From positions 245,775 through 309,774 of the forward strand of contig NZ_KB898725.1 in assembly GCF_000377785.1 (NCBI RefSeq): a stretch of 64,000 nucleotides of DNA. The letters are read 5' to 3'. The translations under genes and the position numbers were made by a program. Shown here piece by piece: positions 43,473-60,841 of the stretch (position 1 is its first letter; the number at the start of each line of letters is the position of its first letter). This stretch comes from Thioalkalivibrio sp. ALJ24 (lineage in GTDB: Bacteria; Pseudomonadota; Gammaproteobacteria; Ectothiorhodospirales; Ectothiorhodospiraceae). The notes under the pieces were generated by a model. It did not search any database, was not told the DNA's origin, and saw only the letters and a list, made by a program, of their open reading frames with translations.

Positions 43473-44556
43473 GTACTCGGCCGACCGCCCGCTGATTCAG
43501 ACCCCGCCGGATGAGCTGTGCCTGCTGCGGCTGTCGGCCCTGGGTGACTGCACCCACGTCGTCCCGGTGGTGCGCAGCCTGCAGGCCGCCTGGCCGCAGA
43601 CCCGCATCACCTGGATCATCGGGCGGCTGGAACACCGGCTGCTGGAAGGACTGCCCGGGGTCGAATTCGTGGTCGTGGACAAGAATCGCGGCCGCCGCGC
43701 CTACGGCGACCTGCGCCGCGCCCTGCGCGGCCGCCGCTTTGACGTCCTGCTGCAGATGCAGGTCTCGCTGCGCGCCAGCCTGCTGGGCCTGCAGGTCCCC
43801 GCGCGTCTGCGCCTGGGCTTCGACCGCCAGCGCGCACGCGACTTCCAGTGGCTGTTCACCCGCCACCGCATCGCCCACCGCCCGCGCGAACACGTGCTCG
43901 ACGGCTTCTTCGGCTTCGCCGAGGCGCTGGGCGTGAGCGAACGCATCCTGCGCTGGGACATCCCGGTGCCGCGGGAGGCCCGGGCCTGGGCCGAACAGCA
44001 CCTGCCCGCCGACCGACCCTGGCTCGCCATCAACCCGTGTTCCAGCGCGCGCTTTCGCAACTTCCGCAACTGGGCGCCCGAACGCTACGCGGCGGTGGCC
44101 GACCACGCCGCCGAACGCCACGGCATGGGCATCGTGCTGACCGGCGGCCCCACGCAGCTCGAGCGCGAATACGGCGAGGCCATCGCCGCGCAATGCCGCC
44201 ACCCCGTCACCAACCTGGTCGGCCGGACCGACCTCAAGCAGTTGCTGGCGGTGCTCGAACGCGCGCAGGTGCTGGTCTCGCCCGACTCCGGCCCCGCCCA
44301 CATGGCCAACGCAACCGGCACCCCGGTGATCGGCCTGTACGCCGGCTCGAACCCCGACCGCACCGGCCCCTATTGCAGCCGGCAATGGGTGGTCAACCAG
44401 TACCCCGAGGCCTGCCGGGCGGCATTCGGCAAGCCGCCCGAGAACCTGCGCTGGGGCCGGCGCGTGCGCGAACCCGACGTGATGGAGCGCATCACCGTCG
44501 CTCAGGTGACCGAGCGGCTGGATGCGCTGCAGCAGGCAGCCCCGTCCGATGCGTGA
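43462..44556 (+). CDS. Glycosyltransferase family 9 (heptosyltransferase-like)
   Basis: A 364-residue GT9 protein, the family of LPS heptosyltransferases WaaC/F/Q. The N-terminal CLLRLSALGDCTHVVPVVRS carries the acceptor-side motif with the catalytic Asp. The nucleotide-sugar side is VLVSPDSGPAHMANATGTP and VIGLYAGSNPDRTGPY. It probably transfers ADP-heptose onto the inner core; WaaC, F and Q cannot be separated by eye. It overlaps lpxL upstream and the GT4 gene downstream by a few bases. Confidence 0.88.
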   Translation: MAPEYSADRPLIQTPPDELCLLRLSALGDCTHVVPVVRSLQAAWPQTRITWIIGRLEHRLLEGLPGVEFVVVDKNRGRRAYGDLRRALRGRRFDVLLQMQVSLRASLLGLQVPARLRLGFDRQRARDFQWLFTRHRIAHRPREHVLDGFFGFAEALGVSERILRWDIPVPREARAWAEQHLPADRPWLAINPCSSARFRNFRNWAPERYAAVADHAAERHGMGIVLTGGPTQLEREYGEAIAAQCRHPVTNLVGRTDLKQLLAVLERAQVLVSPDSGPAHMANATGTPVIGLYAGSNPDRTGPYCSRQWVVNQYPEACRAAFGKPPENLRWGRRVREPDVMERITVAQVTERLDALQQAAPSDA

Positions 44557-45694
44557 ACCCGGCAGCGGCCCCATTGCCCTGTTCTTCGCGACCTCCGGAC
44601 ACAGCGGGGTCGATCGCGTGGTGGCCAACCTGGTCCGGGAATTCGCAAACGTGGACCGGCCATTCGACCTGGTAGCGATCGGCGGGCACGGACCGTATAT
44701 CGACGAGCTTCCGGACAACGTCCGCCATGTCCCGCTGCGGGCTGCCCACCGCAACACGGTCCTGCCCGCGCTGATCGCTTATCTCCTGCGCCACCGCCCC
44801 CGCGCCCTGTACACCGCCAGCCACCGGCTCAATCGCGCGGCGCTGCTCGCGCGCGCACTGGCCCGACCGCGCATGCCGGTCGCGATCCGCATGGGCATGT
44901 CAGTCGCCGCCACGCTGGAGGCCCTGCCCGGGCGCAGAGCCCGGCGCCTGCAGCGCTCCATGCAACGCTGGTATCCCCGCGCGGATGCCGTGATCGCTCC
45001 GTCGGCCGGTGTCGGTGAGGACCTCCAGCGACTCGCCGGCGTGGCTCAATCGCGTCTGCACGTCATCCCCAACCCGATCGTGACCCCGGCCCTGCTGCAA
45101 CAGGCCAGCGAGGATCCCGATCACCCGTGGCTGGCGGAACACCGCGACCCGGCGGTCCCCGTGATCCTGGGCACCGGCTCTCTGGAACCGCGAAAGGATT
45201 TCGCCACCCTGCTGCGCGCCTTCGCGCGCCTTCGGACACAACGCCCGGCCCGTCTGGTCATCCTCGGTGAAGGCCGCGAACGTCCGACCCTGGAAGGGCT
45301 GGCACGCGAACTCGACATCATGGACGACCTGTGCCTGCCCGGCTTTCAGGGCAACCCCTACGCCTGGATGGCCCGCGCCGATGCCTTCGCCCTGACCTCG
45401 CGACGCGAAGGCTCCGGAGCCGTGCTGGTGGAGGCCCTCGCCTGCGGCACCCCGGCCGTTACCACGGATTGCCCCACCGGCCCGGCCGACATCCTCGGCC
45501 ATGGCCAACACGGCCCGGTCGTGCCCGTGGGCGACGACGCGGCCCTCGCCGATGCACTGCAGCAGCTGCTGGACAGCCCCCCCTCGGCGGACACCCTGCG
45601 ACAGGCCACCGCCCCGTTCGATGCCACCCGCTCCGCCCGCGCGTATCTGGCCGCACTCGACCTCGCTCACCCGCCGGCATCCTCCGACCACTGA
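44549..45694 (+). CDS. Glycosyltransferase family 4 (first of three related genes)
   Basis: A 381-residue GT-B glycosyltransferase. The N-terminal half binds the acceptor (FFATSGHSGVDRVVANLVRE). The C-terminal half has the GT4 donor site: SLEPRKDFATLLRAFARLRT and REGSGAVLVEALACGTPAV with the conserved Glu. It closely resembles the genes at 48255 and 56279, suggesting duplication within the locus. Donor and acceptor are unknown; a core or O-chain hexose is likely. ATG 44549 overlaps the GT9 stop by eight bases. Confidence 0.88.
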   Translation: MREPGSGPIALFFATSGHSGVDRVVANLVREFANVDRPFDLVAIGGHGPYIDELPDNVRHVPLRAAHRNTVLPALIAYLLRHRPRALYTASHRLNRAALLARALARPRMPVAIRMGMSVAATLEALPGRRARRLQRSMQRWYPRADAVIAPSAGVGEDLQRLAGVAQSRLHVIPNPIVTPALLQQASEDPDHPWLAEHRDPAVPVILGTGSLEPRKDFATLLRAFARLRTQRPARLVILGEGRERPTLEGLARELDIMDDLCLPGFQGNPYAWMARADAFALTSRREGSGAVLVEALACGTPAVTTDCPTGPADILGHGQHGPVVPVGDDAALADALQQLLDSPPSADTLRQATAPFDATRSARAYLAALDLAHPPASSDH

Positions 45695-45724
45695 TTGGTC
45701 GCGTTCCCGCGCCTGTGATCTAAT
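45695..45724 (+). promoter_or_regulatory. Putative promoter for the sulfotransferase run
   Basis: TTGGTC (-35, 45695-45700) and TCTAAT (-10, 45719-45724) are 18 bases apart and lie 34 bases before the GTG of the first sulfotransferase gene. The -10 matches five of six consensus bases, the -35 only three. Confidence 0.4.
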
Positions 45725-45758
45725 CCACCCAGCCAGTCGCCCGACAAGGCCCGTCATC

Positions 45759-46493
45759 GTGATCATCTCGCACCGCAATCGCTTCATCTTCATCAAGACG
45801 CGCAAGACCGCCGGCTCCAGCCTGGAAGTCGGGCTTTCGCGCGCCTGCGGGCCCGAGGACATCATCACGCCCCTGAGTGCCAATCGCGGAGAGGAAGAGC
45901 TGCGCCGGGCCGAAGGTGGCCAAGGGCCCTCCAACCACCACAAACGGCTGCTGGAACACCGTGGCTGGAAGGAATGGCGCCGGTTGCTGCTGCGCGGGCA
46001 GCGTGCCGAATACGGCGAGCACTCAACCGCCCGGGAGATCCGTGCACTCGTCGGGCCCGAGACCTGGCGGACCTGTTTCCGCTTCACCATCGAGCGCAAC
46101 CCCTGGGACCGGGCCCTGTCGCGCTACTGGTGGCAGAAACATCGCTGGGAAGAGAAGGGGCGAGCTGACTTCCCGAGCGTTAGCGAATACCTCGCCTGGC
46201 TGGAGGAAAACAAGCCGCACTGGCTCAGCAACTGGGATCATTACACCATCGATGACGAGATCGCCGTGGACCGGGTCCTGCGCTACGAAAACCTGAATGC
46301 CGAATTGTCGGAACTGCAGCAGGAACTGGGCCTGGATGCCGACATTCGGCTGCCCGAGCAGCGGGCCAAGGGCGGCTTTCGCCAGGGGCGACAGGACTAC
46401 CGCGAGATCCTGACCGATACCGACCGGGCGATCATCGACCGCGTCTGCCGGCGCGAGATCGACGCCTTCGGCTACCGCTTCGAGGACGGCTGA
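45759..46493 (+). CDS. Sulfotransferase family 2 protein (paralogue A)
   Basis: A 244-residue protein of the Sulfotransfer_2 type. The N-terminal RFIFIKTRKTAGSSLEVGLS contains the PAPS 5'-phosphosulfate loop (Lys16), and FRFTIERNPWDRALSRYWW matches the 3'-phosphate motif (Arg113, Ser121). It would move sulfate from PAPS to a sugar hydroxyl; the acceptor is unknown. GTG 45759 has AAGG nine bases before it. The C-terminal half closely resembles the protein at 49568 (DFPSVSEYL, NKPxWxSNW, LPEQxAKGGFR), so the two are recent paralogues. It has no membrane segment or signal, so it acts in the cytoplasm. Confidence 0.85.
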   Translation: MIISHRNRFIFIKTRKTAGSSLEVGLSRACGPEDIITPLSANRGEEELRRAEGGQGPSNHHKRLLEHRGWKEWRRLLLRGQRAEYGEHSTAREIRALVGPETWRTCFRFTIERNPWDRALSRYWWQKHRWEEKGRADFPSVSEYLAWLEENKPHWLSNWDHYTIDDEIAVDRVLRYENLNAELSELQQELGLDADIRLPEQRAKGGFRQGRQDYREILTDTDRAIIDRVCRREIDAFGYRFEDG

Positions 46494-46495
46494 AC

Positions 46496-47335
46496 ATGGC
46501 TGCCATTTCCCGCAATCGCGGCCCGCTGCGCCGCGGTGTCCAGCGCATCCGGCGCCGCTGGCGGCGCCGGCGTGCGGACGTCCACCTGATCTCCTACCCC
46601 AAATGCGGGAGGACCTGGCTGGTCGTGCTCCTCAGCAAGTCCCTCGAACTGCATTACGGAATCCGTCTGCGCAAGCCGCTGCGCCTGCGGGGCTATGCCC
46701 GCCCCTGGCGCGACATCCCCTACATCCTGCAGCACCACGACGGCGGTCCGGAATTCCTGCTCCCGGAGGAGCTGGAACAGGACAAGAGCGACTATGCGGG
46801 GCGCAAGGTCGTCTTCATGGTCCGCGACCCCCGGGATGTCCTCGTTTCGTCCTATTTCCAGAAGACCCGCCGCAACGCGAACTACCAGGGCCGCATGGAA
46901 GACTATGTCAGGGAACGGCGCGGCGGGATCGAGACATTGGTCGATTTCTACAATATCTGGGCGCGCAACCGTGACGTGCCGGGCGATTTTCTGTTGCTGC
47001 GCTATGAAGACCTGCACGCCGACACCACCGGCCAGCTCCGGCGAGTGCTCGAATTCATCGGCATGCAGGACGTATCCAAGGAAACCCTCCGGGCCGCGGT
47101 GGATTTCGGCCGCTTCGACAACATGCGCCAGCTGGAATCCCGCAACGCGATGGGGAGCAGTTCGCTGGCCGCTCGCGACGCCGACGACACCGAAAGCTAC
47201 AAGACCCGCAAGGGCGAGGTCGGCGGCTACCGCGAATACCTCGACGGCGAAAGCCTCGAATACGTCGAGGCCATCATCAACGAACGTCTGGACCCCTGGT
47301 ACGCGGGCTACCGCTATTTCAGCACGGCATCATGA
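46496..47335 (+). CDS. Sulfotransferase (Sulfotransfer_1 type)
   Basis: A 279-residue protein with the most canonical PAPS-binding motifs in the cluster: 5'-PSB loop VHLISYPKCGRTWLVVLL (Lys36) and 3'-PB segment VVFMVRDPRDVLVSSYFQ. The C-terminal KTRKGEVGGYREYL fits the family's GxxG region. The N-terminus is extremely basic (RIRRRWRRRR), perhaps for membrane or polyanion contact. It begins two bases after the previous sulfotransferase stop and overlaps the next by four, so three different sulfotransferases are translated in a row. Acceptor unknown. Confidence 0.9.
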   Translation: MAAISRNRGPLRRGVQRIRRRWRRRRADVHLISYPKCGRTWLVVLLSKSLELHYGIRLRKPLRLRGYARPWRDIPYILQHHDGGPEFLLPEELEQDKSDYAGRKVVFMVRDPRDVLVSSYFQKTRRNANYQGRMEDYVRERRGGIETLVDFYNIWARNRDVPGDFLLLRYEDLHADTTGQLRRVLEFIGMQDVSKETLRAAVDFGRFDNMRQLESRNAMGSSSLAARDADDTESYKTRKGEVGGYREYLDGESLEYVEAIINERLDPWYAGYRYFSTAS

Positions 47336-48237
47336 CCACTCACGCGACGCCCCCGGTCATCATCATCGGCATGCACCGCTCGGGCACCAGCCTGCTGACC
47401 CGGGTGCTGCAGCAGGCCGGATTCTTCATGGGCGTCGGCGCCAGCCGCAACGAAGAGGCGGCCTTCACCAACGCGATCAACGCCTGGCTCTTCCGCGAGG
47501 CCTCCGCGACCTGGGACCGCCCGGAGTCGTTCGACTGGTTACTGGAGGACGAAACACTCAGGCCGTGGCTGCTGGACTACATGGAAGGGGTCGTGCGCGG
47601 GCCGGCCAGCCTGCGCTTTCTCGGGTTACGCCGCGGTCTGCGCGGCGGCGGCATGCCCGGGCAAACCGCTCCCTGGGGCTGGAAAGATCCGCGCAATACC
47701 TACACGCTGCCGCTGTGGCTGGAGCTCTTTCCGCAGGCCCGGGTGCTGCACATCACGCGGCACGGCGTGGATGTGGCGGCAAGCCTGCGCGCCCGCCGCC
47801 GCGGGGTCTTCGACAAGCGCGTGCGCCGCTATCGATCCCTGCGGGGGTGGTATCGCAATCACCCCGGCGCCCCGGCGCGGCGCGGTTTCGCTCCCCAGGT
47901 ACGGTGCCGTACGCTGGAAGGCGGCTTCTCTCTGTGGGAAAGCTACCTGCAGCGGGCCCAGGAGCATGTCCGGGCCCTGGGACCCAATGCGATGGAGATC
48001 GCTTACGAGGACCTGCTGAGAGATCCGGCGCGACTGCTGCCGCAGGCCCTGGAGTTCTGCGGCTGCCCCCCCCATGCCGAACGGGTGGCTGCTGCAGCGA
48101 CGAGTTTCCGTCCCGACCGAGCCCACGCCTGGCAGCATAATGAAGAGCTGCGCGCCTTTGCTGCCAGCGTATCCGACCGCCTTGCCCGGCTTGGTTATGC
48201 CCCGTCTGCCGAGAATGCCCCGGCCAGAACCGGATAA
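47332..48237 (+). CDS. Sulfotransferase family protein (Sulfotransfer_3-like)
   Basis: A 301-residue protein with a P-loop-like 5'-PSB motif PVIIIGMHRSGTSLLTRVLQ at the N-terminus and a 3'-PB region VLHITRHGVDVAASLRARR. WGWKDPRNTYTLPLWLELFP is typical of bacterial sulfotransferases of this subfamily. Together with the two genes before it, this is the third member of a coupled run (ATGA overlap). It converges with the GT4 gene on the other strand, leaving 17 bases between them. Substrate unknown. Confidence 0.86.
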   Translation: MTTHATPPVIIIGMHRSGTSLLTRVLQQAGFFMGVGASRNEEAAFTNAINAWLFREASATWDRPESFDWLLEDETLRPWLLDYMEGVVRGPASLRFLGLRRGLRGGGMPGQTAPWGWKDPRNTYTLPLWLELFPQARVLHITRHGVDVAASLRARRRGVFDKRVRRYRSLRGWYRNHPGAPARRGFAPQVRCRTLEGGFSLWESYLQRAQEHVRALGPNAMEIAYEDLLRDPARLLPQALEFCGCPPHAERVAAAATSFRPDRAHAWQHNEELRAFAASVSDRLARLGYAPSAENAPARTG

Positions 48238-48254: not shown

Positions 48255-49373
48255 TCACGAACGCGCGGCAGGCGACTCGTCCTTCACGAGCCCCATGACT
48301 TGCGCATACCGAAGGGCGACGCGGTCGCTGCGGAAGCGATCCAGGCCTTCGCGGATCCGCCCCTCCCCGGGCGGGTTTTCCAGCGTCGCCTCCAGGGCTG
48401 CGGCCAGTGCATCCGCGTCTCCCACCGGCACGAGCGGCCCGATCCGCCCGTGCTGAAGAATCTCGGCCGGACCGGAAGGACAGTCGGTGGCCACCGCCGG
48501 CGCTCCGGCCGCCAGCGCTTCGATCAGGACGTTACCCAGTCCTTCATAACGCGAAGAAAGGCAGAAGACCCCGGCCCGGGCGAAATAGGGCAACGGGTCC
48601 GGGACATAGCCGGGAAGGTCAACGGCCTCCGCCACCCCCAGCCGCCGTGCCTGGTCCAGCAGGGCTTCACGCAGGGGCCCCTCGCCCAGGATCACCAGTC
48701 GCACCGCACGCCGTTCGTGCAGCCGGGCGAAGGCCTCCAGCAGCGTGGCAAAGTCCTTCTGCGGTGTCAGGCGACCAGCCCCGACAATGACCGGCGGTCC
48801 GTCACCGGCGAACCAGGGATGATCCACGGGCGCCTTCACGCGCTCGGGAATGTCCGGGGTTACGGTCGGGTTGTAGATTACCTCGATCCGTTCGGGATCC
48901 ACGTCAAAATGCTCGATCAGATCATCCCGGACGCCTTCGGAGATCGCGATGACCCGGTCGGCATGCCGGTACAGCCACCGCGCCGAACGCCGCTTGAATC
49001 GGCGACGCAACGTCTGGCTGGGAGTGTTGGTCACCTTCACGAACACCGGCGACGGCACCCATCTCAGCATGCGCCCCAGCACCGCCACCTTGGCCGAATG
49101 ATCCTTGGCGGTCAGCACCGCCGCAGGTGGTTCCTGCCGCAGCAGACGCCGCAGTTTGAACAGGCTGTCGAACTTGCCCCTGCTCTGAAGATCCACCACC
49201 TCGACGGCCGCCGGGAGTTCCTCCGGGTAGGGCACCTGTCCGCCACGGGTCAGCACAAGCCGGGGCCGGATGCCCAGTTGCAGGAACTCCCGACACAGGA
49301 TCAGCATCTTGCGCTCGATCCCGCCCCAGGCCTTGAAGGGTGCGAAAATCACCAATCTCGAACTCAATGCCAC
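48255..49373 (-). CDS. Glycosyltransferase family 4 (second paralogue, opposite strand)
   Basis: A 372-residue GT-B enzyme read leftward, against its neighbours. The donor-site half contains GRLTPQKDFATLLEAFARLH, RLVILGEGPLREALL and SSRYEGLGNVLIEALAAGAP. The N-terminal half starts RLVIFAPFKAWGGIERKMLI. It is closely similar to the GT4 proteins at 44549 and 56279. Start is uncertain: GTG 49373 and TTG 49367 both follow a GGGAG; ATG codons further up (49433, 49415) lack support. The reversed orientation suggests an inversion or separate insertion. Sugar specificity unknown. Confidence 0.83.
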   Translation of the reverse strand: MALSSRLVIFAPFKAWGGIERKMLILCREFLQLGIRPRLVLTRGGQVPYPEELPAAVEVVDLQSRGKFDSLFKLRRLLRQEPPAAVLTAKDHSAKVAVLGRMLRWVPSPVFVKVTNTPSQTLRRRFKRRSARWLYRHADRVIAISEGVRDDLIEHFDVDPERIEVIYNPTVTPDIPERVKAPVDHPWFAGDGPPVIVGAGRLTPQKDFATLLEAFARLHERRAVRLVILGEGPLREALLDQARRLGVAEAVDLPGYVPDPLPYFARAGVFCLSSRYEGLGNVLIEALAAGAPAVATDCPSGPAEILQHGRIGPLVPVGDADALAAALEATLENPPGEGRIREGLDRFRSDRVALRYAQVMGLVKDESPAARS

Positions 49374-49567
49374 CGCTCCCGTTCCTCGGCCGGAATGAAG
49401 GCACGCACTCACCATACTCGATCTCGTGTACACATATGATGCATCCTGCGAAATTCCACATCCGGCTTAATCGTGACGGGCTCAAATGAGCCGCTCATCT
49501 GGTCGGCCCTGCTCGGTTTGTGGTGTAATAAGACCGATAATCTCGCCAAACACCGGGGGCCCGCCGG

Positions 49568-50296
49568 ATGATCGTTTGCCACCGGCACCGTTTCATCTTC
49601 ATCAAGACCCGCAAAACCGCCGGCAGCAGCATCGAGATCGCGCTCTCCCGCCTTTGCGGCCCCGGAGACATCGTCACGCGCCTGAGCTCGGAGCGGGGCG
49701 AAGAAAGACTCCGACAAGAAGAGGGCGGCTATGGCCCCACCGGCGACCGGAAGCCCGTTCTTGCACACCGTGGGTTCCGGGAGTGGCGCCGGCTGCTTAC
49801 GCAGGGACAACGCGCACGCTGGAGGCAGCACACTACTGCACGAACTCTTCGCGAGCTGCTTCCTAGCCATGTATGGGACAGCTATCTCAAGATCACGGTC
49901 GAGCGTAACCCATGGGACCGTGCCCTGTCGCGGTACTGGTGGATGAAGGGCCGGCGCGAAGAACAGGGGCAGACGGATTTCCCCAGCGTGTCCGAGTACC
50001 TGATCTGGATGGAGAAAAACAAGCCTCAGTGGATCTCTAACTGGGCACACTACGCCATCGACGATGGCCTGCTCGTCGACCGGGTTCTTCTTTACGAACG
50101 GCTCGACTCGGATCTGGCCGAACTCGCGCAAACGCTCGGGGTCGACGCGACGCAATTGCAACTGCCAGAACAAAAGGCAAAAGGCGGGTTCCGGAAAGAC
50201 ACACGCTCATACCGGGATGTACTCGGCCAATCAGACAGGACCCTTATCGAGCGGGTCTGCCAACCCGAGATCCGTGCGTTCGGATATCAATTTTAA
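49568..50296 (+). CDS. Sulfotransferase family 2 protein (paralogue B)
   Basis: A 242-residue close paralogue of the protein at 45759. 5'-PSB segment FIFIKTRKTAGSSIEIALSR, 3'-PB segment LKITVERNPWDRALSRYWW, then the shared DFPSVSEYLIWMEKNKPQW and LPEQKAKGGFRKDTRSYRD. The two copies flank two other sulfotransferases and the reversed GT4 gene, as if this block had been duplicated or inserted. A 194-base divergent gap precedes it, with TAATAA as a weak -10 candidate at about 49528. Cytoplasmic; acceptor unknown. Confidence 0.86.
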   Translation: MIVCHRHRFIFIKTRKTAGSSIEIALSRLCGPGDIVTRLSSERGEERLRQEEGGYGPTGDRKPVLAHRGFREWRRLLTQGQRARWRQHTTARTLRELLPSHVWDSYLKITVERNPWDRALSRYWWMKGRREEQGQTDFPSVSEYLIWMEKNKPQWISNWAHYAIDDGLLVDRVLLYERLDSDLAELAQTLGVDATQLQLPEQKAKGGFRKDTRSYRDVLGQSDRTLIERVCQPEIRAFGYQF

Positions 50297-51714: not shown

Positions 51715-51716
51715 CC

Positions 51717-52649: not shown

Positions 52650-53706
52650 CCTCGTCATCCACATGGGCATGCCAAAGACTGGCACGACAACACTGCAGGG
52701 TAACGTATTCTCGCAGCTACCCGGCTTTCTCGGAAAAGAAAAGCAGGGTCGGTGCCTGTCCGGCACCCGCGAGGCGGCGCAAGGGTTGACGCGGCTTATG
52801 GAACGCCATTTTCGCAACGGTATGGACGAGTCGCTGCGTCAGGAGCTAGTCCGGTGGCGTACTGATTGCATGCGACTCTTTCAGGCGCAGCATACGGACC
52901 GGGAGCTTTCGGGTCCTCTCATCCTGAGCGAAGAGCGGCTCGCCATGTGGCCTGTAAACAAGGGCCACGTATCCAAGTGGCCAATCCAGCCGGGTTCCCG
53001 ACGATCGACCGTCGGCAACCTCCCTGATCGGCACCACCCTGCACCTTTCGTTGCATTCCTCCAGGCTGTTCGAGAAGAGCTGTGGCCTGACGGGCGCGTC
53101 AAGGTTCTGCTCACCCTGCGTAACCAGGCGGACTGGCTAGCATCCCACTACAGCCATATGAGCAACCGCATCCCCGGTGCTTGTCAGAGAGACTTTGAAG
53201 CTCGTGTAAAGATGCTCATCAGAGCGCCCGAACCATTCCTCGAGTGGTCTGCATGGGTAGAACAAATCACCGCCACTGTGGGAACGGACAATACTTGTGT
53301 ACTACCGATGGAGTTAATCGGGACACGGCAATACTGGGAGCAGCTGAGCGAGTTCCTACATTTGGAGCAACCGATCTGGCGTTGGGAATCCTTTGCGTCC
53401 CACCCGCGCAACGTGCGTCCCAAATCAGCGCCGGACACATGGAGCTTGCGCCCACTCAACAGCAAAAAACTCTTGTCGCCCCTTTTGGGCGAAGGCAAGC
53501 GTTCGGCGTTTGAGTGGACATTAAAAGTTATTCGCCGAATCGAACCCTGTTTTCGCCCTTTATTTTCCATCACCATCGATCGGGCCAGGGACGAAAAAAT
53601 CACCCTGACCCCGGAGTTGCGAGCACAGATAAAGGAAGCGTTTCATAGCGGCAATACAATGTTGTCCCATACGCTGGAGACCGACCTTTCCCAGCTGGGG
53701 TATTGA
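52627..53706 (+). CDS. Putative sulfotransferase, divergent
   Basis: A 359-residue protein with a sulfotransferase-like 5'-PSB loop in LVIHMGMPKTGTTTLQGNVF and a 3'-PB-like segment VKVLLTLRNQADWLASHYSH. The rest is not closely similar to the other sulfotransferases here. Two starts are possible: ATG 52627 with AAGGA eight bases upstream, or GTG 52642 with GGAGG eight bases upstream. Base composition is distinctly lower in GC (53521-53580 has 25 of 60 G+C by my count), pointing to recent acquisition. Function as a PAPS-dependent enzyme is inferred from the motifs. Confidence 0.78.
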   Translation: MEGTPVTDLVIHMGMPKTGTTTLQGNVFSQLPGFLGKEKQGRCLSGTREAAQGLTRLMERHFRNGMDESLRQELVRWRTDCMRLFQAQHTDRELSGPLILSEERLAMWPVNKGHVSKWPIQPGSRRSTVGNLPDRHHPAPFVAFLQAVREELWPDGRVKVLLTLRNQADWLASHYSHMSNRIPGACQRDFEARVKMLIRAPEPFLEWSAWVEQITATVGTDNTCVLPMELIGTRQYWEQLSEFLHLEQPIWRWESFASHPRNVRPKSAPDTWSLRPLNSKKLLSPLLGEGKRSAFEWTLKVIRRIEPCFRPLFSITIDRARDEKITLTPELRAQIKEAFHSGNTMLSHTLETDLSQLGY

Positions 53707-53724: not shown

Positions 53725-54480
53725 ATGCTGATCTCTCACAAATACAAATTCATCTTCATCAAGACCGGAAAGGTCGGCGGGACATCACTGGAGATGGCCC
53801 TTTCAAGGTTCATGGACCCCGAAGACATCATCACTCCACTTACCTGGGGTGATGAGAAGGAACGCTACCAACGCGGCTACCCTACAGCACAGAACTTCGA
53901 ACAGGCATTGCGCGGCCTGACGCCCCGACAATGGCCACGCTGGTTCCGTTCAGCTATCGGCACTCGATTAGGCAACCGGGAAAAGGCCTTGCGAGCAACA
54001 ACCAGAGCTCCCAAGCGCTACTGGGACCACATGCCCGCCAGGGCGATACGTGAGCGCGTGGGCGAAGAAGTCTGGAACTCGTACTACAAATTTTCCATTG
54101 AACGAAACCCTTGGGATAAAATGGTTTCTCGGTACTTCTGGGACCCCAAGAAGCGGAAGGCCGGGCTTTCATTCAGGGAATTTATTCTTTCCGGGAACGG
54201 ACTGAAGAGCAATTTCAACTACTATACCCTCAACGGCATCCTTGGCGTAGATCGATTGATCCGCTATGACCGACTAAACGAAGAGCTGGGCGACGTGTCC
54301 CGTGAGCTCGGACTACCGGAGGATGTAGGCGAAACTCTCCGGGGCCTTTCTGCCAAGGGGGGGTATCGCAAAGGCCGAGATGTGGTGAGCCTTTATGATG
54401 ACGAGACGCGAAGGATTGTGGAGGTCTTCTTCGCAAGGGAGATTCAGTTGCTGGGTTTCGAGTTCGAGGAGTGCCCGTGA
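53725..54480 (+). CDS. Sulfotransferase family 2 protein (paralogue C)
   Basis: A 251-residue relative of the proteins at 45759 and 49568. The N-terminus KFIFIKTGKVGGTSLEMALS and the following DPEDIITPLTW are nearly the same as in paralogue A; the 3'-PB segment is YKFSIERNPWDKMVSRYFWD. The middle differs: it has a longer insert with QALRGLTPRQWPRWFR. The gene is A+T-richer than paralogue A, so it may have arrived separately instead of arising by local duplication. It ends in a GTGA overlap with the next gene. Confidence 0.84.
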   Translation: MLISHKYKFIFIKTGKVGGTSLEMALSRFMDPEDIITPLTWGDEKERYQRGYPTAQNFEQALRGLTPRQWPRWFRSAIGTRLGNREKALRATTRAPKRYWDHMPARAIRERVGEEVWNSYYKFSIERNPWDKMVSRYFWDPKKRKAGLSFREFILSGNGLKSNFNYYTLNGILGVDRLIRYDRLNEELGDVSRELGLPEDVGETLRGLSAKGGYRKGRDVVSLYDDETRRIVEVFFAREIQLLGFEFEECP

Positions 54481-55433
54481 CGGAAAGCAAGATTTTTGTG
54501 ATCTCCCTGCACCGCACGATGACTCGCAGCACGGACATCCTTCTGTCCAGCCTAGGGTACACCACACTCCATTTTCCCAAGTTCTTCAATGGCGAGAATC
54601 TGATGGAGGCAGTACGTGGGCTGGAGGATAATCCTGAAGAGGTACTGCAACGGCTGACCCCACTCATAGAGTCACGTGACGCCTTCAGCGACGTCCCGTT
54701 TCCGGGCCTTTACCCGCAGCTCGCCGAGCGCTGGCCAGATAGCCGCTTCATACTAGTCCATCGTGACCCTGACCACTGGGAACGTAGCGCCCGCGGCCAT
54801 ATGAAGGATCGGAAACTGTCACCCTACAACCGGATTCAGTACCGTCTCTACGTGGATGCAAACATCCAGCGATTGCCTGAGCTTCCGAAGGGAAGGCTTG
54901 CGGAAATCCACGAACAACACACGCATCAGGTACGGGAGCATTTTGAGAAACATCTGGGTGAGGCAGATCGCCTTTGTACTGTGGACATCGCAGACGGCAA
55001 CGCCGGGGAACAAATCTGCGCATTTCTGGGGCACGATCCGATACCCCTCCCCCGGCTTTCGGGACGCCCGTCCCCCGAGGATATGAAGACAAGCCGCGAG
55101 TGGGTGGAGGCTTGCCCTTACAAATCTGATGCCCGGTATTTCCTGGCTACCAACCTCCTGAACGCCGGAAGGGTTAAGGAAGCCCGGGAGCATCTGCGCT
55201 GCGCGATCCAGCACGAGCCGGACCAGCCGAAGCCGTATGCCATGTTGTCCGAGATTCTCGAACGGGAAAACGACCGCGAAGCCGAGGTGATGGCTCATCA
55301 CGCAGTCCGGTGCGGGCTGATACGCCCGAGGCTCTGCTCCCGCGCAGCCCGTGGGCGAGCGCGAGCGGGCCACTGGAAAGAGGCTTTTTCGCTCTGGATG
55401 ACCGGTCTCACCCATCGCGTGCGACGCCACTGA
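54477..55433 (+). CDS. Sulfotransferase-like protein with C-terminal TPR-like region
   Basis: A 318-residue protein. Residues 1-~200 look like a bacterial sulfotransferase domain: IFVISLHRTMTRSTDILLSS at the 5'-PSB position and RFILVHRDPDHWERSARGHM at the 3'-PB position. From about residue 220 a helical, TPR-like region follows (ARYFLATNLLNAGRVKEARE, HLRCAIQHEPDQPKPYAMLS). TPR-sulfotransferase fusions are known in bacteria, usually in the reverse order. The 5'-PSB loop HRTMTRST is unusual because it lacks the common GT pair, so activity is uncertain. GTG 54477 overlaps the previous stop. Confidence 0.75.
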   Translation: MTESKIFVISLHRTMTRSTDILLSSLGYTTLHFPKFFNGENLMEAVRGLEDNPEEVLQRLTPLIESRDAFSDVPFPGLYPQLAERWPDSRFILVHRDPDHWERSARGHMKDRKLSPYNRIQYRLYVDANIQRLPELPKGRLAEIHEQHTHQVREHFEKHLGEADRLCTVDIADGNAGEQICAFLGHDPIPLPRLSGRPSPEDMKTSREWVEACPYKSDARYFLATNLLNAGRVKEAREHLRCAIQHEPDQPKPYAMLSEILERENDREAEVMAHHAVRCGLIRPRLCSRAARGRARAGHWKEAFSLWMTGLTHRVRRH

Positions 55434-55520
55434 AACGTCGTGTGTCTCTCAAGGGAGCCTCCGTGACGAGTGCCAGCGGAACATAGACCCTCATCCTGCC
55501 ATTCACCAGCTGGAATACCA

Positions 55521-56282
55521 GTGATCTTCATGGACAATCCACGACAGGTCGACGAGCCCGCACTTGAAGACTGGCGATCCCATCCGTGGAATGGACATTG
55601 CCGCATCCTGTCCGATCCCGGAATGCTCCGGGGGTGCAATAACGATCTGTTCGATCCCGAGGCATTGCGGGCACGAGGTCAGTGGACCGGCAGCAGCAGC
55701 GGTCGGCGTGCGACCCACTTCCTGCATCACGAGGGGCGCGACTGGGTCCTGCGCCATTACTGGCGGGGCGGACTGATGGCCCGGGTTGCCACGGATACCT
55801 ACCTGTGGACCGGGCTGGAACGCAGCCGTCCGGTGCGCGAGTGGCGCCTGCTGGCGCGCCTGCACGAACTCGGGCTGCCGGTCCCGCGTCCGGGCGCCGC
55901 ACGGGTCTGCCGCCACGGGCCGGTGTATCGAGGCGATCTGCTGAGCGAACGCATCCCGGACAGCCACCCGCTGGACGAATGGATCGGGGACGGAAAGGAC
56001 GCGCCCGAACTGTGGGACGCAATCGGCCGGGTGATCGCCCGGTTCCACGTCCATGGCGCCTGGCATCCGGATCTCAACGCCCGCAACATCCTGATCCAGG
56101 ACAATGGGCGGGTCTGGGTGATCGACTGGGACCGGGGCCGGATCGGCCACCATCGGGGGCTTCAGGACAACCTGTCGCGTCTGCGGCGTTCGCTGGACAA
56201 ATGGCCGGCGACTCGCGAGCGCGGCGCCCTCGGCTGGCCGCACCTGCTTCAGGCCTACAACGAGGAACGAAAACCGGCATGA
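55521..56282 (+). CDS. kdkA: 3-deoxy-D-manno-octulosonic acid kinase
   Basis: A 253-residue KdkA, which phosphorylates the Kdo residue of the inner core with ATP. The N-lobe has WVLRHYWRGGLMARVATDTY, nearly as in Haemophilus KdkA. Then come LHELGLPVPRPGAARV and the kinase catalytic loop HPDLNARNILIQ with the metal-binding VWVIDWDRGR. Phosphorylated Kdo often replaces a second Kdo in the core. Start: GTG 55521 preferred, ATG 55530 possible. The stop overlaps the next GT4 start by four bases. Confidence 0.93.
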   Translation: MIFMDNPRQVDEPALEDWRSHPWNGHCRILSDPGMLRGCNNDLFDPEALRARGQWTGSSSGRRATHFLHHEGRDWVLRHYWRGGLMARVATDTYLWTGLERSRPVREWRLLARLHELGLPVPRPGAARVCRHGPVYRGDLLSERIPDSHPLDEWIGDGKDAPELWDAIGRVIARFHVHGAWHPDLNARNILIQDNGRVWVIDWDRGRIGHHRGLQDNLSRLRRSLDKWPATRERGALGWPHLLQAYNEERKPA

Positions 56283-57421
56283 CTACCCCGCGGTTGGCCG
56301 TGCTCGTGTCCTACACCGGGGATGGCGGCGTCGAAAAGATGATGAACCATCTGCTGCGCGGGTTCGTGGATGCCGGCGTGCAGGTGGATCTGCTGTTGCT
56401 GAAGGCCCGCGGCGGCCATGTGGAGGATATCCCGGCAGAGGTCAATGTGATCCGGCTGGATGCGCGCACCTCCCTGCTGGCGCTGCCCGCGGTCACCCGT
56501 TACCTGCGTCGCCAGCGCCCCGACGCCTTGCTGGCCGCCAAGGACCGCGCCGGCCGCGTGGCCCTGCGCGCGCGCCGGCTGGCACGGGTACCGACGCGGA
56601 TCATTCTGCGGATGGGGATGCACCTCAGCGGCTCGCTGGCCGACAAGACCGCCCTGCAGCGATGGCTGCGTTACCGCCCCGTCCGGCAACTGTACCCGCT
56701 GGCGGATGCCATCGTCGCCGTGGCGCAGCCGGTGGCCGACGACCTCGCCCGCATCGGGGGCATCCCGTCGGAGCGTTTCCGCGTGATCGCCAACCCGGTG
56801 ATCTCGCCATCCCTGATGGCCAGGGCTGAAGAAGCCGCAGAGCATCCATGGCTGGAAGCGGCCACACGGACTGGTACGCCAGTCATCCTGGCGGTGGGCC
56901 GACTGCGGCCGCAAAAGGATTTCGCTACCCTCCTGCGAGCCTTCGCGCTGCTGCATGCCCGGCGACCGTGCCGGCTCATCATCCTGGGGGAAGGACCGGA
57001 GCGGGACCGCCTGCAAGGCCTGGCGCGCGAACTGGGCATCGCCGACCATGTCGATCTTGCGGGTTTCCGCTCCAATCCATATCCGTTGATGCGCGCTGCC
57101 AGCCTGTTCGTGCTGTCCTCCCGCTTCGAGGGATCGCCCAATGTCCTGGTCGAAGCCATGGCGCTCGGGACACCGGTGGTGTCGACGGATTGCCCGAGCG
57201 GTCCGCGAGACATCCTCGCCGGGGGCCGCCTTGGCCCGCTCGTCCGGGTGGGCGATGCCTCCGCGCTGGCCGAAGGGATGGCCCGCGGGCTGGAGGCACC
57301 CATCGAGCCGGGACTGCTGCAACAGGCCGTCGCTGACTACACCGTCGAAACGAGCGCCCGCGCCTATCTGGAGGCGCTGGGCATCGCGCCACCCACAACG
57401 CAACCGGCCGACACCGCATGA
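56279..57421 (+). CDS. Glycosyltransferase family 4 (third paralogue)
   Basis: A 380-residue GT-B enzyme related to those at 44549 and 48255. Acceptor half: VLVSYTGDGGVEKMMNHLLR. Donor half: VGRLRPQKDFATLLRAFALL, RLIILGEGPERDRLQGLARE and SSRFEGSPNVLVEAMALGTP with the catalytic Glu. It overlaps kdkA upstream and the ParB-like gene downstream by four bases each (ATGA). Probably builds the outer core or O-chain; sugar specificity unknown. Confidence 0.89.
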   Translation: MTTPRLAVLVSYTGDGGVEKMMNHLLRGFVDAGVQVDLLLLKARGGHVEDIPAEVNVIRLDARTSLLALPAVTRYLRRQRPDALLAAKDRAGRVALRARRLARVPTRIILRMGMHLSGSLADKTALQRWLRYRPVRQLYPLADAIVAVAQPVADDLARIGGIPSERFRVIANPVISPSLMARAEEAAEHPWLEAATRTGTPVILAVGRLRPQKDFATLLRAFALLHARRPCRLIILGEGPERDRLQGLARELGIADHVDLAGFRSNPYPLMRAASLFVLSSRFEGSPNVLVEAMALGTPVVSTDCPSGPRDILAGGRLGPLVRVGDASALAEGMARGLEAPIEPGLLQQAVADYTVETSARAYLEALGIAPPTTQPADTA

Positions 57422-58020
57422 CCACGCCCCTGCTCATCGACCTGCCGACCGAGGCCCTGCAGCGCTATCTCGCCAAGCGCGATCGGTCCTCCAAGGCCCG
57501 GTTCTTCATCGACGGTCTGTTCCTTCCCCGACGCGTACGCCGGGGTCAATGGCACCGGCGGACCGAACCCTTCGATCAGCACCCGATCTACGGTCTGCTG
57601 GAACACCTGCTGGACGAGCAGCGCAGTCGGTCGGAACACATCGAAGCGTTGCGCCACTACTACCGCGCGCGCGGCAAGACCGAGGATCAGGCCGAGGAGA
57701 AGATCACGCGTTCGCTGGACAAGTACCTCGAGCGTTACCGCGGCCTCGCCCGCAACATGGCGGAGAACGGATACGTCGCCGGCCTGGGCAAGGACGAGAT
57801 CGGCGTGGCCATCGGCCCGGACGGCGAATTCATCAAGGTGGCGAACGGCAATCATCGGCTGGCGGTGGCCCGCCTGGTCGGCGTCCCGCAGGTGGTGGGT
57901 GAAATCCAGTTCGTGCACCGCGACTGGCTGCGCCGCCAGCCCTCGCAACGCGACGTCGACGAGACCCTGCTGCATGCCCTGGGCTCGCTGAATGCCCGAC
58001 GCAATCCCGCGGATTCCTGA
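57418..58020 (+). CDS. ParB-like domain protein in the LPS locus
   Basis: A 200-residue protein. The only recognisable part is near residues 137-160: GPDGEFIKVANGNHRLAVAR followed by LVGVPQVVGEIQFVH, which matches the ParB/sulfiredoxin-like fold (GxxR/NHR motif). The N-terminal 130 residues are helical and charged. No DNA-binding helix-turn-helix is evident. Such proteins occur scattered in polysaccharide clusters with no known job; nucleotide binding or an enzymatic role is possible. It overlaps GT4 by four bases and precedes a sulfotransferase gene, so it is expressed with LPS genes. Confidence 0.72.
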   Translation: MTTPLLIDLPTEALQRYLAKRDRSSKARFFIDGLFLPRRVRRGQWHRRTEPFDQHPIYGLLEHLLDEQRSRSEHIEALRHYYRARGKTEDQAEEKITRSLDKYLERYRGLARNMAENGYVAGLGKDEIGVAIGPDGEFIKVANGNHRLAVARLVGVPQVVGEIQFVHRDWLRRQPSQRDVDETLLHALGSLNARRNPADS

Positions 58021-58032
58021 CGCAGCCGCGGT

Positions 58033-58038: not shown

Positions 58039-58068
58039 ACCGCGACCGATCCCCGCCAGCCTTGATCC

Positions 58069-58749
58069 ATGCTGATTTCCTATCGCAAGAATTTCCTGTT
58101 CGTGCACATCGCCAAGACGGGCGGGACCAGCATCCGGGCGGCGTTGCGGCCGTATCGCTGGGGCGGCTGGTACAGCATCCCGCTGTGGGCGGCCAGCCAG
58201 GTCAGTCAGCTGACGCGGCCCCGGCACAAGCTGGGGCTGAAGTTTCCGCGCCACGCGAAGGCCATCGCGGCCAAGGAGATGCTGCCGGAGCCGGTCTACC
58301 GCGAGCTGTTCAAGTGCGCGATCGTGCGCAACCCCTGGGATCTGCAGGTCAGTTCCTGGCACCACATCCGGCGGGAGAAGCCGGAGGTCCTGGAAGGGGT
58401 CAAAACCTTCGGAGATTTCCTGCGGCTGAAGTTCGACCCCGAACGGCCGTACGACTACATGCTGGACACCTCGGCGGAGCTGCAGCACGAATACATCGTC
58501 GATCTGCAGGGGCGGGTGATCGTCGATTTCATCGGCCGCTACGAGAACCTGCACGAGGATTTCGGCACGATCTGTCAGCGCATCGGGATCCCGACGCCCG
58601 AGCTCCCGCATCTGCGCCGCGCCAGTGAACGCGACGACTACCGCAGCTACTACGACGACACCCTGGCGGAGATGGTGGCGCAGCATTATCGCCGCGACCT
58701 AGACCTGCTGGGGTACGAATTCGATGCCCCGACTGCCACAAACCGGTGA
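58069..58749 (+). CDS. Sulfotransferase family 2 protein (paralogue D)
   Basis: A 226-residue member of the Sulfotransfer_2 group, more distant from the other three. The 5'-PSB segment is NFLFVHIAKTGGTSIRAALR and the 3'-PB segment is CAIVRNPWDLQVSSWHHIRR. Its GC content matches the flanking core genes, unlike the 50-55 kb sulfotransferases. The 3' end overlaps the tandem-kinase gene by 26 bases. Cytoplasmic, acceptor unknown. Confidence 0.84.
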   Translation: MLISYRKNFLFVHIAKTGGTSIRAALRPYRWGGWYSIPLWAASQVSQLTRPRHKLGLKFPRHAKAIAAKEMLPEPVYRELFKCAIVRNPWDLQVSSWHHIRREKPEVLEGVKTFGDFLRLKFDPERPYDYMLDTSAELQHEYIVDLQGRVIVDFIGRYENLHEDFGTICQRIGIPTPELPHLRRASERDDYRSYYDDTLAEMVAQHYRRDLDLLGYEFDAPTATNR

Positions 58750-60007
58750 CCGCCCGGAGATCCCTGGCCTCGGGACCCTCGCGCTGGAGGACTGCCTCCA
58801 CGAGTACCCGGGCAAGCGGCGGATCTTTCGCGCCCGATTACCCGACGATCGGGCGGTGGTCGCCAAGTTCTATCTCGGGCGCATCGCGCAGTGGGCCGAA
58901 TGGCGCCGTGGCACGCGCGGGGCGCGCCGACTGGAGGCGGCCGGCGTGCCCGCGCCGGCGGTGCACCATGCCGGCTACTGCCCGCAATACCGCGCGTGGC
59001 TGCTGGTGCTGGACCTGGTCGAGGCGGATACCCCCTGGCCACCGCCCGGCGGCGATCCCGGGCACGAGGCCCATGCCCGGCTGCTGGCCACCCTGGCCGA
59101 ACACCACCGCGCCGGCATCATGCAGAACGATCTCAACTGGCTGAACTTCATCCCCCGCGACGGAAAGCTGTACGCGATCGACGGGGACCGGGTCCGGCGC
59201 CGCGCCGGAGCGCTGGGCCGCGGGCCCGCCCTGCGCCACCTGCAGCGGCTGTACGCGTCCAAGACCCGCGTGCCCGAGGCGCGCATCCGCGAGGGCTTCC
59301 GGCTCTACCACGAACTGCGTGGCTGGGACCCGACCGAGGCCGAACTGGAACGTTTCCTGCGGACACTGCGCCACGCCCGCGTCCGTCACGCCCGCCGGGT
59401 TGCGCACCGCGCGGCACGCGGCTGGAAACATTATCCGCGTTTTCGCAGCGCCGACCTCGGGGTCATCCACGATCGACGCAGGCTTACGCGCGAGCAGGCC
59501 GGCGAGATCGCCCGCCAGCTGTACGCGACCGGCAAACTGCCCGAGACCGTGGCGAACAACGAGCTGGGGGCCCGGCGGATTGATGCACCCTGGCAGACCC
59601 TGCCTGCGCTGCTGCGCCCGGCCCTCACCCGCCGGACCGCGCGTCGGGTCTGGAGCCATGCCCTCACCCTCCGGCGGCTGGGGCTGGCGGTGCCGCGGCC
59701 GGTGGCGGTGGTCGCCGCGGATTGCGGCATGATCTGGCTGGTCCAGGAGGCGATCCCGGACATGCACCCGCTGACGGTCGGCGGCCAACCGCCCGGACCG
59801 GAAGCGGCCGAGACGCTGTGGGCGAGTCTGCGGGACTACGGGATCCGGTTCCGCGGGCGGGACCCGCGCATGCTGGGCAGCGACGGCCATGCGTTGTGGA
59901 TCCTCGATCCGCTACCGCTGGCCTTTGCCCGGCCGGGAGGGCGCGGTCTTCTGCGCGCCGCGCAGCGCGACCGGGAATGGCTGCGGCAGGTCAGCGAGGC
60001 GCGCTGA
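58724..60007 (+). CDS. LPS-kinase-like protein with two kinase-type halves
   Basis: A 427-residue protein. Residues 20-~190 look like a small sugar/LPS kinase: Lys48 in VVAKFYLGRIAQW, RRLEAAGVPAPAVHHAGYC, and the catalytic loop MQNDLNWLNF (Asp136, Asn141) with metal Asp153 in LYAIDGDRV. Residues ~235-425 repeat the plan in degenerate form: RRLGLAVPRPVAVVAADCG, then DYGIRFRGRDPRMLGSDGHA and WILDPLPLAF, with no HxD catalytic loop and no Asn. I read this as a kinase fused to a pseudokinase. It probably phosphorylates a core sugar, next to kdkA. Start ATG 58724 overlaps the sulfotransferase. Confidence 0.72.
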   Translation: MPRLPQTGDRPEIPGLGTLALEDCLHEYPGKRRIFRARLPDDRAVVAKFYLGRIAQWAEWRRGTRGARRLEAAGVPAPAVHHAGYCPQYRAWLLVLDLVEADTPWPPPGGDPGHEAHARLLATLAEHHRAGIMQNDLNWLNFIPRDGKLYAIDGDRVRRRAGALGRGPALRHLQRLYASKTRVPEARIREGFRLYHELRGWDPTEAELERFLRTLRHARVRHARRVAHRAARGWKHYPRFRSADLGVIHDRRRLTREQAGEIARQLYATGKLPETVANNELGARRIDAPWQTLPALLRPALTRRTARRVWSHALTLRRLGLAVPRPVAVVAADCGMIWLVQEAIPDMHPLTVGGQPPGPEAAETLWASLRDYGIRFRGRDPRMLGSDGHALWILDPLPLAFARPGGRGLLRAAQRDREWLRQVSEAR

Positions 60008-60031
60008 CCCGGCGCTGACGACGCGGGGGCG

Positions 60032-60841
60032 TCAGTCCAGACCCCAGCGACGCTCCTTGGCGTCGTTGGCCACGCGTCCGGGCCAGGCGATCACGTTCTG
60101 GATGCGCTGCATGTACGGCGGGATCACCTGCTTCCAGGCATCGTCCGGCCAGATCACGCTGCCCTCGGTCTTGCGAAAGACATCCGCCGAACCGATGTTG
60201 TGATGCGCCATCTCCGCCCAGGAATCCAGCTGCGGGCGCTCGAACTCCAGCCCCAGGCGCTCCATCAGCTTCGGCAGCTGGTCCTCGGGGTCGTAGGCCA
60301 GCTTCTCGTAATTCACCACGATATGCGGCTCGTTGCGCAGCAGGTAGTACAGCCGCAGCGAGCGATGGGAATAGGAGAAGGTGGGGATATAGTTCTGCTG
60401 CTTGCGCTTGCGCAGCGACTGCGCCCGCCCGCGCGGGTCGCGCAGCACGTGGATGGGCACCACGTCGATGTCGGGCGCAGCCATCAGCCGGCGCAGGCGC
60501 TGCACCGACTTGGAATTGTCGGTCACGAACGGCACCCCGCTGACCTCGGAGACCACCTCGAACAGCGTGCGGTTGTGCTCGTTGAAGCGCGCCGGGTCGC
60601 GCGCATGCACGTCCAGGGTCTCCAGATTGCAGCCTAGGCGCTCCTCCAGCCGGGCGTTGACCGCCGACCAGAACTCGCATGCCCAGAAGCTGGGCGCGCC
60701 GCAGGGGCAGGGATGCTTGCGCGCGTAATGCGCCAGGCGCCGGACCCCGCCCAGCGCGCGCACCTGGCTGTGCGCGTCCAGCAGGATGTCCAGCAGGGTC
60801 GAGCCGCTGCGGCCCATGCCCACGAGGTAGAGTACTTTCAT
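60032..60841 (-). CDS. Sulfotransferase family protein with Cys cluster
   Basis: A 269-residue protein read leftward. The 5'-PSB loop is VLYLVGMGRSGSTLLDILLD and the 3'-PB segment VPIHVLRDPRGRAQSLRKRK. After the first motif comes HPCPCGAPSFWACEFWSAV, a cysteine group seen in many bacterial sulfotransferases. The Sulfotransfer_3-type layout resembles the 47332 protein only loosely. It lies 26 bases downstream of hldE on the same strand, so expression may be linked to heptose synthesis. Acceptor unknown. Confidence 0.86.
   Translation of the reverse strand: MKVLYLVGMGRSGSTLLDILLDAHSQVRALGGVRRLAHYARKHPCPCGAPSFWACEFWSAVNARLEERLGCNLETLDVHARDPARFNEHNRTLFEVVSEVSGVPFVTDNSKSVQRLRRLMAAPDIDVVPIHVLRDPRGRAQSLRKRKQQNYIPTFSYSHRSLRLYYLLRNEPHIVVNYEKLAYDPEDQLPKLMERLGLEFERPQLDSWAEMAHHNIGSADVFRKTEGSVIWPDDAWKQVIPPYMQRIQNVIAWPGRVANDAKERRWGLD

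Follow-up and report, generated by a model that had tools for sequence, protein, structure and literature searches.

A lipopolysaccharide locus of Thioalkalivibrio sp. ALJ24 with nine predicted sulfotransferase genes and a putative mobile sulfation module

The window analyzed here is a 64,000-nucleotide stretch of the Thioalkalivibrio sp. ALJ24 genome (contig NZ_KB898725.1), in which nine genes of sulfotransferase (ST) families are interleaved with genes predicted to act in the synthesis of lipopolysaccharide (LPS). By Pfam profile search, waaA, gmhA/B-like, heptosyltransferase (GT9), KdkA, HldE, and LpxL-like genes lie together in 25 kb, and this co-location of heptose, 3-deoxy-D-manno-octulosonic acid (Kdo), and core genes identifies the region, as judged from gene content, as an LPS (or lipooligosaccharide, LOS) biosynthesis locus. 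HldE of the window shares 97% identity with HldE of T. halophilus HL17, and by sequence the host belongs to Thioalkalivibrio, close to T. halophilus. An original prediction, made from the letters of the window, had proposed that several of these enzymes, differing in acceptor, sulfate the LPS outer core or O-chain at many positions. All nine open reading frames (ORFs) that it named are present where it placed them, and the framing that it described by waaA, gmhA/B, a heptosyltransferase, and hldE is backed by Pfam (PF04413, PF13580, PF13242, PF01075, and PF00294 plus PF01467). Among the interleaved genes, the three of glycosyltransferase (GT) family 4, the GT2 gene, the Wzy_C-family gene, and KdkA held up, the kinase-like gene at 58724 gave only a weak match, and a conserved 200-aa gene at 57418–58020 had been missed. 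The features of the locus, with the STs named ST1 to ST9 in order of their start positions, are as follows.

37895..39715, + strand: ATP-binding cassette exporter (PF00664 and PF00005), by family and place an MsbA candidate (lipid A-core flippase)
39876..41516, - strand: waaA-like Kdo transferase (PF04413, 198.7 bits); ORF start over-long
41156..41725, - strand: gmhB-like HAD phosphatase (PF13242)
41728..42327, - strand: gmhA-like sedoheptulose-7-phosphate isomerase (SIS_2, PF13580)
42393..43472, + strand: LpxL-like lipid A acyltransferase (PF03279, 235.8 bits)
43462..44556, + strand: heptosyltransferase GT9 (PF01075, 173 bits)
44522..45694, + strand: glycosyltransferase GT4a (PF00534), with relatives in related loci
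45759..46493, + strand: predicted sulfotransferase ST1 (PF03567, 21.9 bits against a cut-off of 22; AlphaFold2 model and Foldseek)
46496..47335, + strand: predicted sulfotransferase ST2 (PF00685, 92.6 bits)
47332..48237, + strand: predicted sulfotransferase ST3 (PF13469, 78.7 bits)
48255..49433, - strand: glycosyltransferase GT4b (PF13692)
49568..50296, + strand: predicted sulfotransferase ST4 (PF03567, 28.6 bits; 61% identity to ST1)
50305..51714, + strand: WaaL-like membrane protein of the O-antigen ligase/polymerase family (Wzy_C, PF04932, 50 bits)
51711..52649, + strand: GT2-like glycosyltransferase (PF00535, 38.2 bits)
52627..53706, + strand: predicted sulfotransferase ST5 (PF00685, 23.2 bits), no counterpart found in the HL17 locus
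53725..54480, + strand: predicted sulfotransferase ST6 (PF03567, 19.6 bits against a cut-off of 22; both PAPS motifs; 34% identity to ST4, 41% to ST1)
54471..55433, + strand: predicted sulfotransferase ST7 (PF17784, 79.9 bits) with a C-terminal part like a tetratricopeptide repeat (TPR; matches under cut-off)
55470..56282, + strand: KdkA Kdo kinase (PF06293, 142 bits; NCBIfam equivalog, 250.9 against 142)
56279..57421, + strand: glycosyltransferase GT4c (PF13692)
57418..58020, + strand: conserved 200-aa protein with no family match (53–88% identity in four related loci)
58069..58749, + strand: predicted sulfotransferase ST8 (PF03567, 40.6 bits; 88–96% identity in six congeners)
58724..60007, + strand: Kdo-kinase-like protein by weak match (PF06293, 20.0 against 21.3 bits), a possible second phosphorylating enzyme
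60032..60841, - strand: predicted sulfotransferase ST9 (PF13469, 49.8 bits)
60868..62292, - strand: hldE, ADP-heptose synthesis (PF00294, PfkB, and PF01467, cytidylyltransferase)

Profile searches, which the original prediction had proposed as a check, place most of the nine proteins within sulfotransferase families. Seven of the nine pass Pfam cut-offs, spread over Sulfotransfer_1 (ST2 and ST5), Sulfotransfer_2 (ST4 and ST8), Sulfotransfer_3 (ST3 and ST9), and Sulfotransfer_4 (ST7), and ST1 and ST6 fall narrowly under the Sulfotransfer_2 cut-off, by 0.1 and 2.4 bits. The paired motifs for 3'-phosphoadenosine 5'-phosphosulfate (PAPS) that had been claimed for the nine genes are also there: a 5'-phosphosulfate-binding (5'-PSB)-like motif near the N terminus together with R[NDH]x6S occurs in 9/9 STs and 0/11 other locus genes, by a pattern tuned after the sequences had been inspected, and when the residues of each ST were shuffled, the pair appeared in 0–8 of 2000 shuffles. 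The sole two invariant columns in an alignment of the nine are the R and S of the 3'-phosphate-binding (3'-PB) motif, residues eight apart that we take to belong to PAPS recognition. The fold was modeled for ST1 (one of the nine), with a mean predicted local distance difference test score (pLDDT) of 92.8 from 42 related rows; the best 50 Foldseek matches of this model in the PDB are all sulfotransferases or retinol dehydratase, which shares the sulfotransferase fold. From families, motifs, and this model, all nine are probably PAPS-type sulfotransferases. A sequence scan found no strong hydrophobic stretch in any of them, so they are probably cytoplasmic, alongside PAPS and the nascent core.

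The STs of this genome lie in a single place. When the 2.81-Mb genome was scanned at E up to 0.001, the matches to Sulfotransfer_1 (4/4), Sulfotransfer_2 (3/3), Sulfotransfer_3 (3/3), and Sulfotransfer_4 (1/1), some of them pieces of one gene, were all in the locus; a scattered distribution of STs was rejected, as none of the four models matches elsewhere at that threshold. Of five of the nine STs compared with NCBIfam, four had no match, and the fifth, ST9, matched NoeE below threshold. The nine had no Stf0 match among Pfam families when E values up to 1 were admitted.

The locus was compared with those of six congeners, which include T. halophilus HL17 (G007), Thioalkalivibrio ALJ3 (G005), T. 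thiocyanoxidans ARh2 (G020), ALJ7 (G024), and a Thioalkalivibrio metagenome-assembled genome (MAG; G018). In HL17, ALJ3, and ARh2, the interior lies between GT9-GT4a-ST1-ST2-ST3 and KdkA-GT4c-(57418 gene)-ST8-kinase-ST9-HldE. Conservation of the ST block, another check proposed at the outset, was thus borne out for the outer STs (ST1–3, ST8, and ST9) as a whole set in these three congeners and in part in the other three: ALJ7 has a partial frame without the 57418 gene and ST9, a fifth genome (G025) has one without ST1 and in a different gene order, and the MAG keeps ST1, ST3, and ST8 with KdkA located elsewhere. ST8 is present in all six congeners and ST9 in four.

The interior turns over. HL17 carries eight of the nine STs, ST5 being missing, and the interior of ALJ3 holds three different Sulfotransfer_2 genes, another WaaL-like protein, a GT4, an APH-like kinase, and an AAA-like protein. 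GC content at third codon positions (GC3) is 0.65–0.71 for ST4 to ST7 of the window interior and 0.75–0.91 for the remaining genes. We consider it quite likely, from gene content and comparison, that in this haloalkaliphilic Thioalkalivibrio the LPS/LOS locus incorporates a mobile, PAPS-dependent sulfation module made of conserved enzymes and exchangeable extras. The same interior is what an O-antigen locus would look like, with its low GC3, its turnover between species, and a Wzy_C-family protein in the middle of the locus, and the O-antigen operon of a marine Vibrio that has a sulfated capsule includes an ST gene, according to the accessible part of that report (PMC11641403). The STs could then act on O-antigen or exopolysaccharide repeat units, with the WaaL-like protein and the variable interior building or ligating a separate chain and the core-gene neighborhood being incidental. 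This alternative stays in play because of the WaaL-like protein, and we regard it as somewhat doubtful: no Wzx, Wzm, or Wzt export set was recognized among the locus genes (the rest of the genome was not searched), the most conserved STs (ST8 and ST9) adjoin hldE and the kinase-like gene, and the WaaL-like protein is at most 35% alike outside the HL17 pair.

Ratios of nonsynonymous to synonymous substitution (dN/dS), computed against the window genes for ten genes, show that the five STs covered (ST1–3, ST8, and ST9) are under purifying selection. ST9 has the lowest values of the ten (0.048–0.058), and ST8 (0.087–0.120) lies below HldE (0.090 with HL17 and 0.163–0.245 with the others) save in the HL17 pair. 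Values for ST1 (0.186–0.381), ST2 (0.060–0.225), and ST3 (0.170–0.233) may be set beside those of GT9 (0.164–0.303). The dS of ST8 to G005, G020, and G025 is 0.33–0.38, versus about 0.7 for HldE or the adjacent kinase gene, a pattern as after local recombination. Fifteen of 30 genus genomes (e.g. G002, G004, G009, and G011), some of them incomplete assemblies, give no full-length HldE match, so that LPS cores of two kinds may exist in the genus.

PAPS synthesis genes are not in the window. The ALJ24 genome encodes a 571-aa fusion of Sat and adenosine 5'-phosphosulfate (APS) kinase on another contig than the ST locus, and Desulfurivibrio has an APS kinase gene inside the homologous locus. Across the genus, the Sat-APS kinase fusion occurs in 7 of 30 genomes, each of which also has a Sulfotransfer_2 match. 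If only the 23 genomes of at least 95% completeness are counted, it is found in 7/8 Sulfotransfer_2 carriers versus 0/15 non-carriers (Fisher p 3.3e-5), and in 6/7 versus 1/16 (p 4.6e-4) when carriers are those with two or more ST matches; these definitions were chosen post hoc, after the tables were known, 12 tests were run, and congeners are not independent. This association bears on whether the genes are largely relics, with STs that hitch-hike and no PAPS reaching them in many strains. Such a state would fit ARh2, which keeps the block without a PAPS synthetase, and the deletion remnants that record synthetase loss elsewhere. With dN/dS well under 1 for the five STs covered (ST4–ST7 being outside that set), the synthetase in seven of eight near-complete carriers, and an APS kinase gene within the Desulfurivibrio locus, we find it improbable and continue to favor a working PAPS-dependent module.

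The sites of synthetase loss are themselves informative. In ARh2, a single contig joins the flanks of the Sat-APS kinase site, which are separated by about 130 bases that contain no gene; an assembly gap as the cause of the missing synthetase was therefore rejected. Two ST-free genomes retain remnants at the home site, G029 the final 28 codons and G004 the initial 36, so the gene was deleted there. These remnants are bordered by a 75–90-bp intergenic repeat family (L108 5066–5157 and L109 5239–5330), and L111 has 13 copies of a 72-nt family of Thioalkalivibrio intergenic repeats; recombination between repeat copies may explain the deletions. A tree of the site's flank is mostly unresolved and puts G021, with the gene, beside G022, without it. 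In ALJ24, the fusion gene adjoins serS (L023 2728–5823) and occupies a different place from that in HL17, through either a relocation or a join made in assembly. The idea of a common site next to serS was dropped, since in other species with both genes these are far apart or on different contigs. In a further Thioalkalivibrio MAG (G019, L026 280–4273), a Sulfotransfer_2 gene has an APS kinase gene to one side and cysN/cysD-like genes to the other.

A scan of genome contigs for related loci gave at least 78, of which 75 (L033–L107) were compared. Among the matches listed, to which the counts of loci given here refer, ST1, ST2, ST3, and ST8 are found again, in company with GT4 and LPS genes, in MAGs of Ectothiorhodospiraceae and in Desulfurivibrio, a member of another phylum, and seven non-Thioalkalivibrio loci (L033, L034, L035, L037, L038, L039, and L040) have two or more of these four STs at ≥57% identity. 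A relative of ST1 is about 50% identical in L042 and L043 and at most 45% in the other loci; more distant STs occur together with GT9 and KdkA-like genes in L045, L050, and L066 and with GT9 in L053. Strong APS kinase matches were found in eight of ten genomes with related loci.

The Desulfurivibrio sp. AMeS2 locus begins with HldE, a gmhA-like gene (by eye), gmhB, GT9, KdkA, ST8, GT4c, ST1, ST2, and a WaaL-like gene; continues with GT4, ST3, GT4b, APH-like and AAA-like genes, three more STs, a GT4, and an FkbM methyltransferase; and ends with a GT4a-like gene (54%), an APS kinase gene, and a homolog of the 58724 kinase-like gene (46%), the last two overlapping by four bases. Of the three further STs, two are above the Sulfotransfer_2 cut-off, and the third is 54% identical to an ALJ3 ST that is above it. 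Identities to the window are 77% for ST8, 75% for ST1, 71% for ST2, and 68% for ST3, and only 53% for SerS. ST1 of the window is nearer that of AMeS2 than those of ALJ3 or ARh2 (68%), and for ST1 a Gammaproteobacteria-only clade was rejected by the approximately unbiased (AU) test (p 0.011). Contamination of the AMeS2 contig is thought unlikely because it is 284 kb long, the tetranucleotide make-up of the locus correlates at 0.87–0.92 with a different contig of this genome and at 0.12–0.53 with three Gammaproteobacterial loci, the locus is followed by AIR-synthase-family and lpxC genes, and the series KdkA-GT4c-ST8-ST1-WaaL occurs in a second Desulfobulbaceae assembly (L035). So much shared gene content in distant bacteria suggests, at the level of sequence, a transferable route to a highly charged cell surface.

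The sample code CSSed is on four of the seven loci (L033, L035, L037, and L039), and one of the seven is Desulfurivibrio; L038 and L040 lie outside the soda-lake-coded set. The available part of one paper uses the code beside Cock Soda Lake (PMC6146748), and we infer that later CSSed samples come from there too. The suggestion that sulfated LPS suits a saline or alkaline habitat therefore has the module's company in its favor (Thioalkalivibrio, Desulfurivibrio, and MAGs with the soda-lake code) and is weakened by the genus itself, in which 19 of 30 genomes have no Sulfotransfer_2 match, so that the module is not needed for haloalkaline life there. These absences also suit a reading of the module as antigenic or receptor variation, for escape from phages, predators, or grazers, in which sulfation would not be particularly related to alkalinity or salt. 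Interior gene turnover, the low-GC3 interior, and ST5, which was found in the strain of the window but not in HL17's locus, point the same way. We judge this reading possible and lean a little against it, because dN/dS of ST9 and ST8 is below that of HldE (ST8 in the HL17 pair excepted), unlike diversifying genes, and because of the CSSed and Desulfurivibrio carriers.

Several further observations, along with those 19 genomes and the post hoc definitions, weigh against a conserved, mobile, PAPS-dependent LPS sulfation module as the preferred reading. Sulfation of LPS is predicted here from genes. The best Foldseek E value of the ST1 model is modest (3.5e-4, with a TM score of about 0.45 and one match <0.001), and only three of the six congeners have the complete frame, for which we lowered our confidence slightly. 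ARh2 has eight open STs and no APS kinase above chance level; the carrier G021 shows just one ST match, close to the edge of a contig, and lacks a full-length match to HldE; and among genomes with related loci, that of L037 has no APS kinase match and that of L041 a weak one only. The supply association loosens when any APS kinase is set against Sulfotransfer_2 carriage (7/8 versus 6/15, p 0.074) or any ST match against the fusion (7/17 versus 0/6, p 0.12), and the AU test leaves the Gammaproteobacteria-only clade unrejected for ST8 (p 0.072).

The nearest known cases found, as far as the accessible texts go, are the sulfation of LPS by LpsS and sulfated capsules with cysNDC and three STs. LpsS of Sinorhizobium meliloti is a named LPS sulfotransferase, listed in the Stf0 family in the consulted portion of a paper that calls its biological relevance not well understood (PMC12445080); it is the single enzyme from which LPS sulfation is best known. 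It resembles the predicted role here in modifying LPS and differs at family level, a comparison made without direct alignment, from the window's STs, which among sulfotransferase families match only Sulfotransfer_1–4 (E up to 1) and number nine in one LPS locus. In Vibrio sp. KMM 8419, cysNDC (PAPS) and STs share a surface polysaccharide cluster, a pairing called a hallmark in the excerpt available (PMC11641403). That case has three STs in an 80-gene capsule and O-antigen region, for which the excerpt does not describe an LPS-core frame of heptose and Kdo-kinase genes. The part available of a review of polysaccharide sulfotransferases does not contain the words lipopolysaccharide or LPS (PMC11625862). 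Literature on sulfated LPS and related terms, in a partial coverage with most subscription papers outside, yielded no multi-ST LPS-core locus, and text joining Thioalkalivibrio with sulfotransferase, in the portions accessible, held only a passing co-mention of the words. The window STs share profile matches, both PAPS motifs, and, for ST1, the fold with carbohydrate sulfotransferases of Pfam Sulfotransfer_1/2/3/4; they depart from them in the scores of ST1 and ST6 just below cut-off and in the TPR-like part joined to ST7.

Polymorphic LPS loci that determine O-serotype or core type have more fixed ends and an exchangeable interior with glycosyltransferases and a WaaL-family protein. The window shares this layout, with the difference that many of the swapped decorators are sulfotransferases. 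Under the preferred reading, the Sat-APS kinase fusion would convert cytoplasmic sulfate and ATP into PAPS, GT9 would add heptose, and the GT4 and GT2 enzymes would lengthen the core on the cytoplasmic side of the inner membrane. Each of the soluble sulfotransferases would sulfate a hydroxyl of one particular sugar, KdkA and the second kinase-like protein would add phosphate, the MsbA-like exporter would flip the product, and the WaaL-like protein would act outside. ST1–3, ST8, and ST9 would form the more conserved part, able to move between lineages and phyla, and ST4–ST7 would be exchangeable decorators, as in O-serotype variation.

The multi-enzyme, PAPS-dependent part of the original prediction is backed by genetics: the families and motifs, the single locus for all STs detected, purifying selection on five of them, a PAPS synthetase that goes with Sulfotransfer_2 genes across the genus, and the Desulfurivibrio APS kinase. 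Beyond this, we infer the enzyme activity, LPS as the acceptor, differences in acceptor among the STs, the core over the O-chain, several sulfated positions, and a benefit in surface charge at high pH and salt; a gain from pH-independent charge in soda brine is plausible. A bolder version, which we offer tentatively as falling just short of an even balance, is a soda-lake cassette for LPS hypersulfation: ST1, ST2, ST3, ST8, GT4a–c, the kinase, and PAPS synthesis would have passed between Gammaproteobacteria and Desulfobacterota, and the resulting core would be heparin-like, phosphorylated and densely sulfated, with a charge independent of pH; exchangeable extra STs would write strain-specific sulfate patterns on it. 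If a PAPS-linked, multi-enzyme set is indeed spread across phyla in an extreme habitat, its purpose could be tested by comparing congeners with and without it, and the locus provides a range of haloalkaliphile carbohydrate sulfotransferases that are probably cytoplasmic.

The 57418–58020 protein gave no Pfam or NCBIfam match and only a chance-level match in a PDB profile search, and its predicted structure is of low quality (mean pLDDT 39.9). By eye, it is presumably ParB-like ('GNHRLAVA'). Its gene sits between GT4c and ST8.

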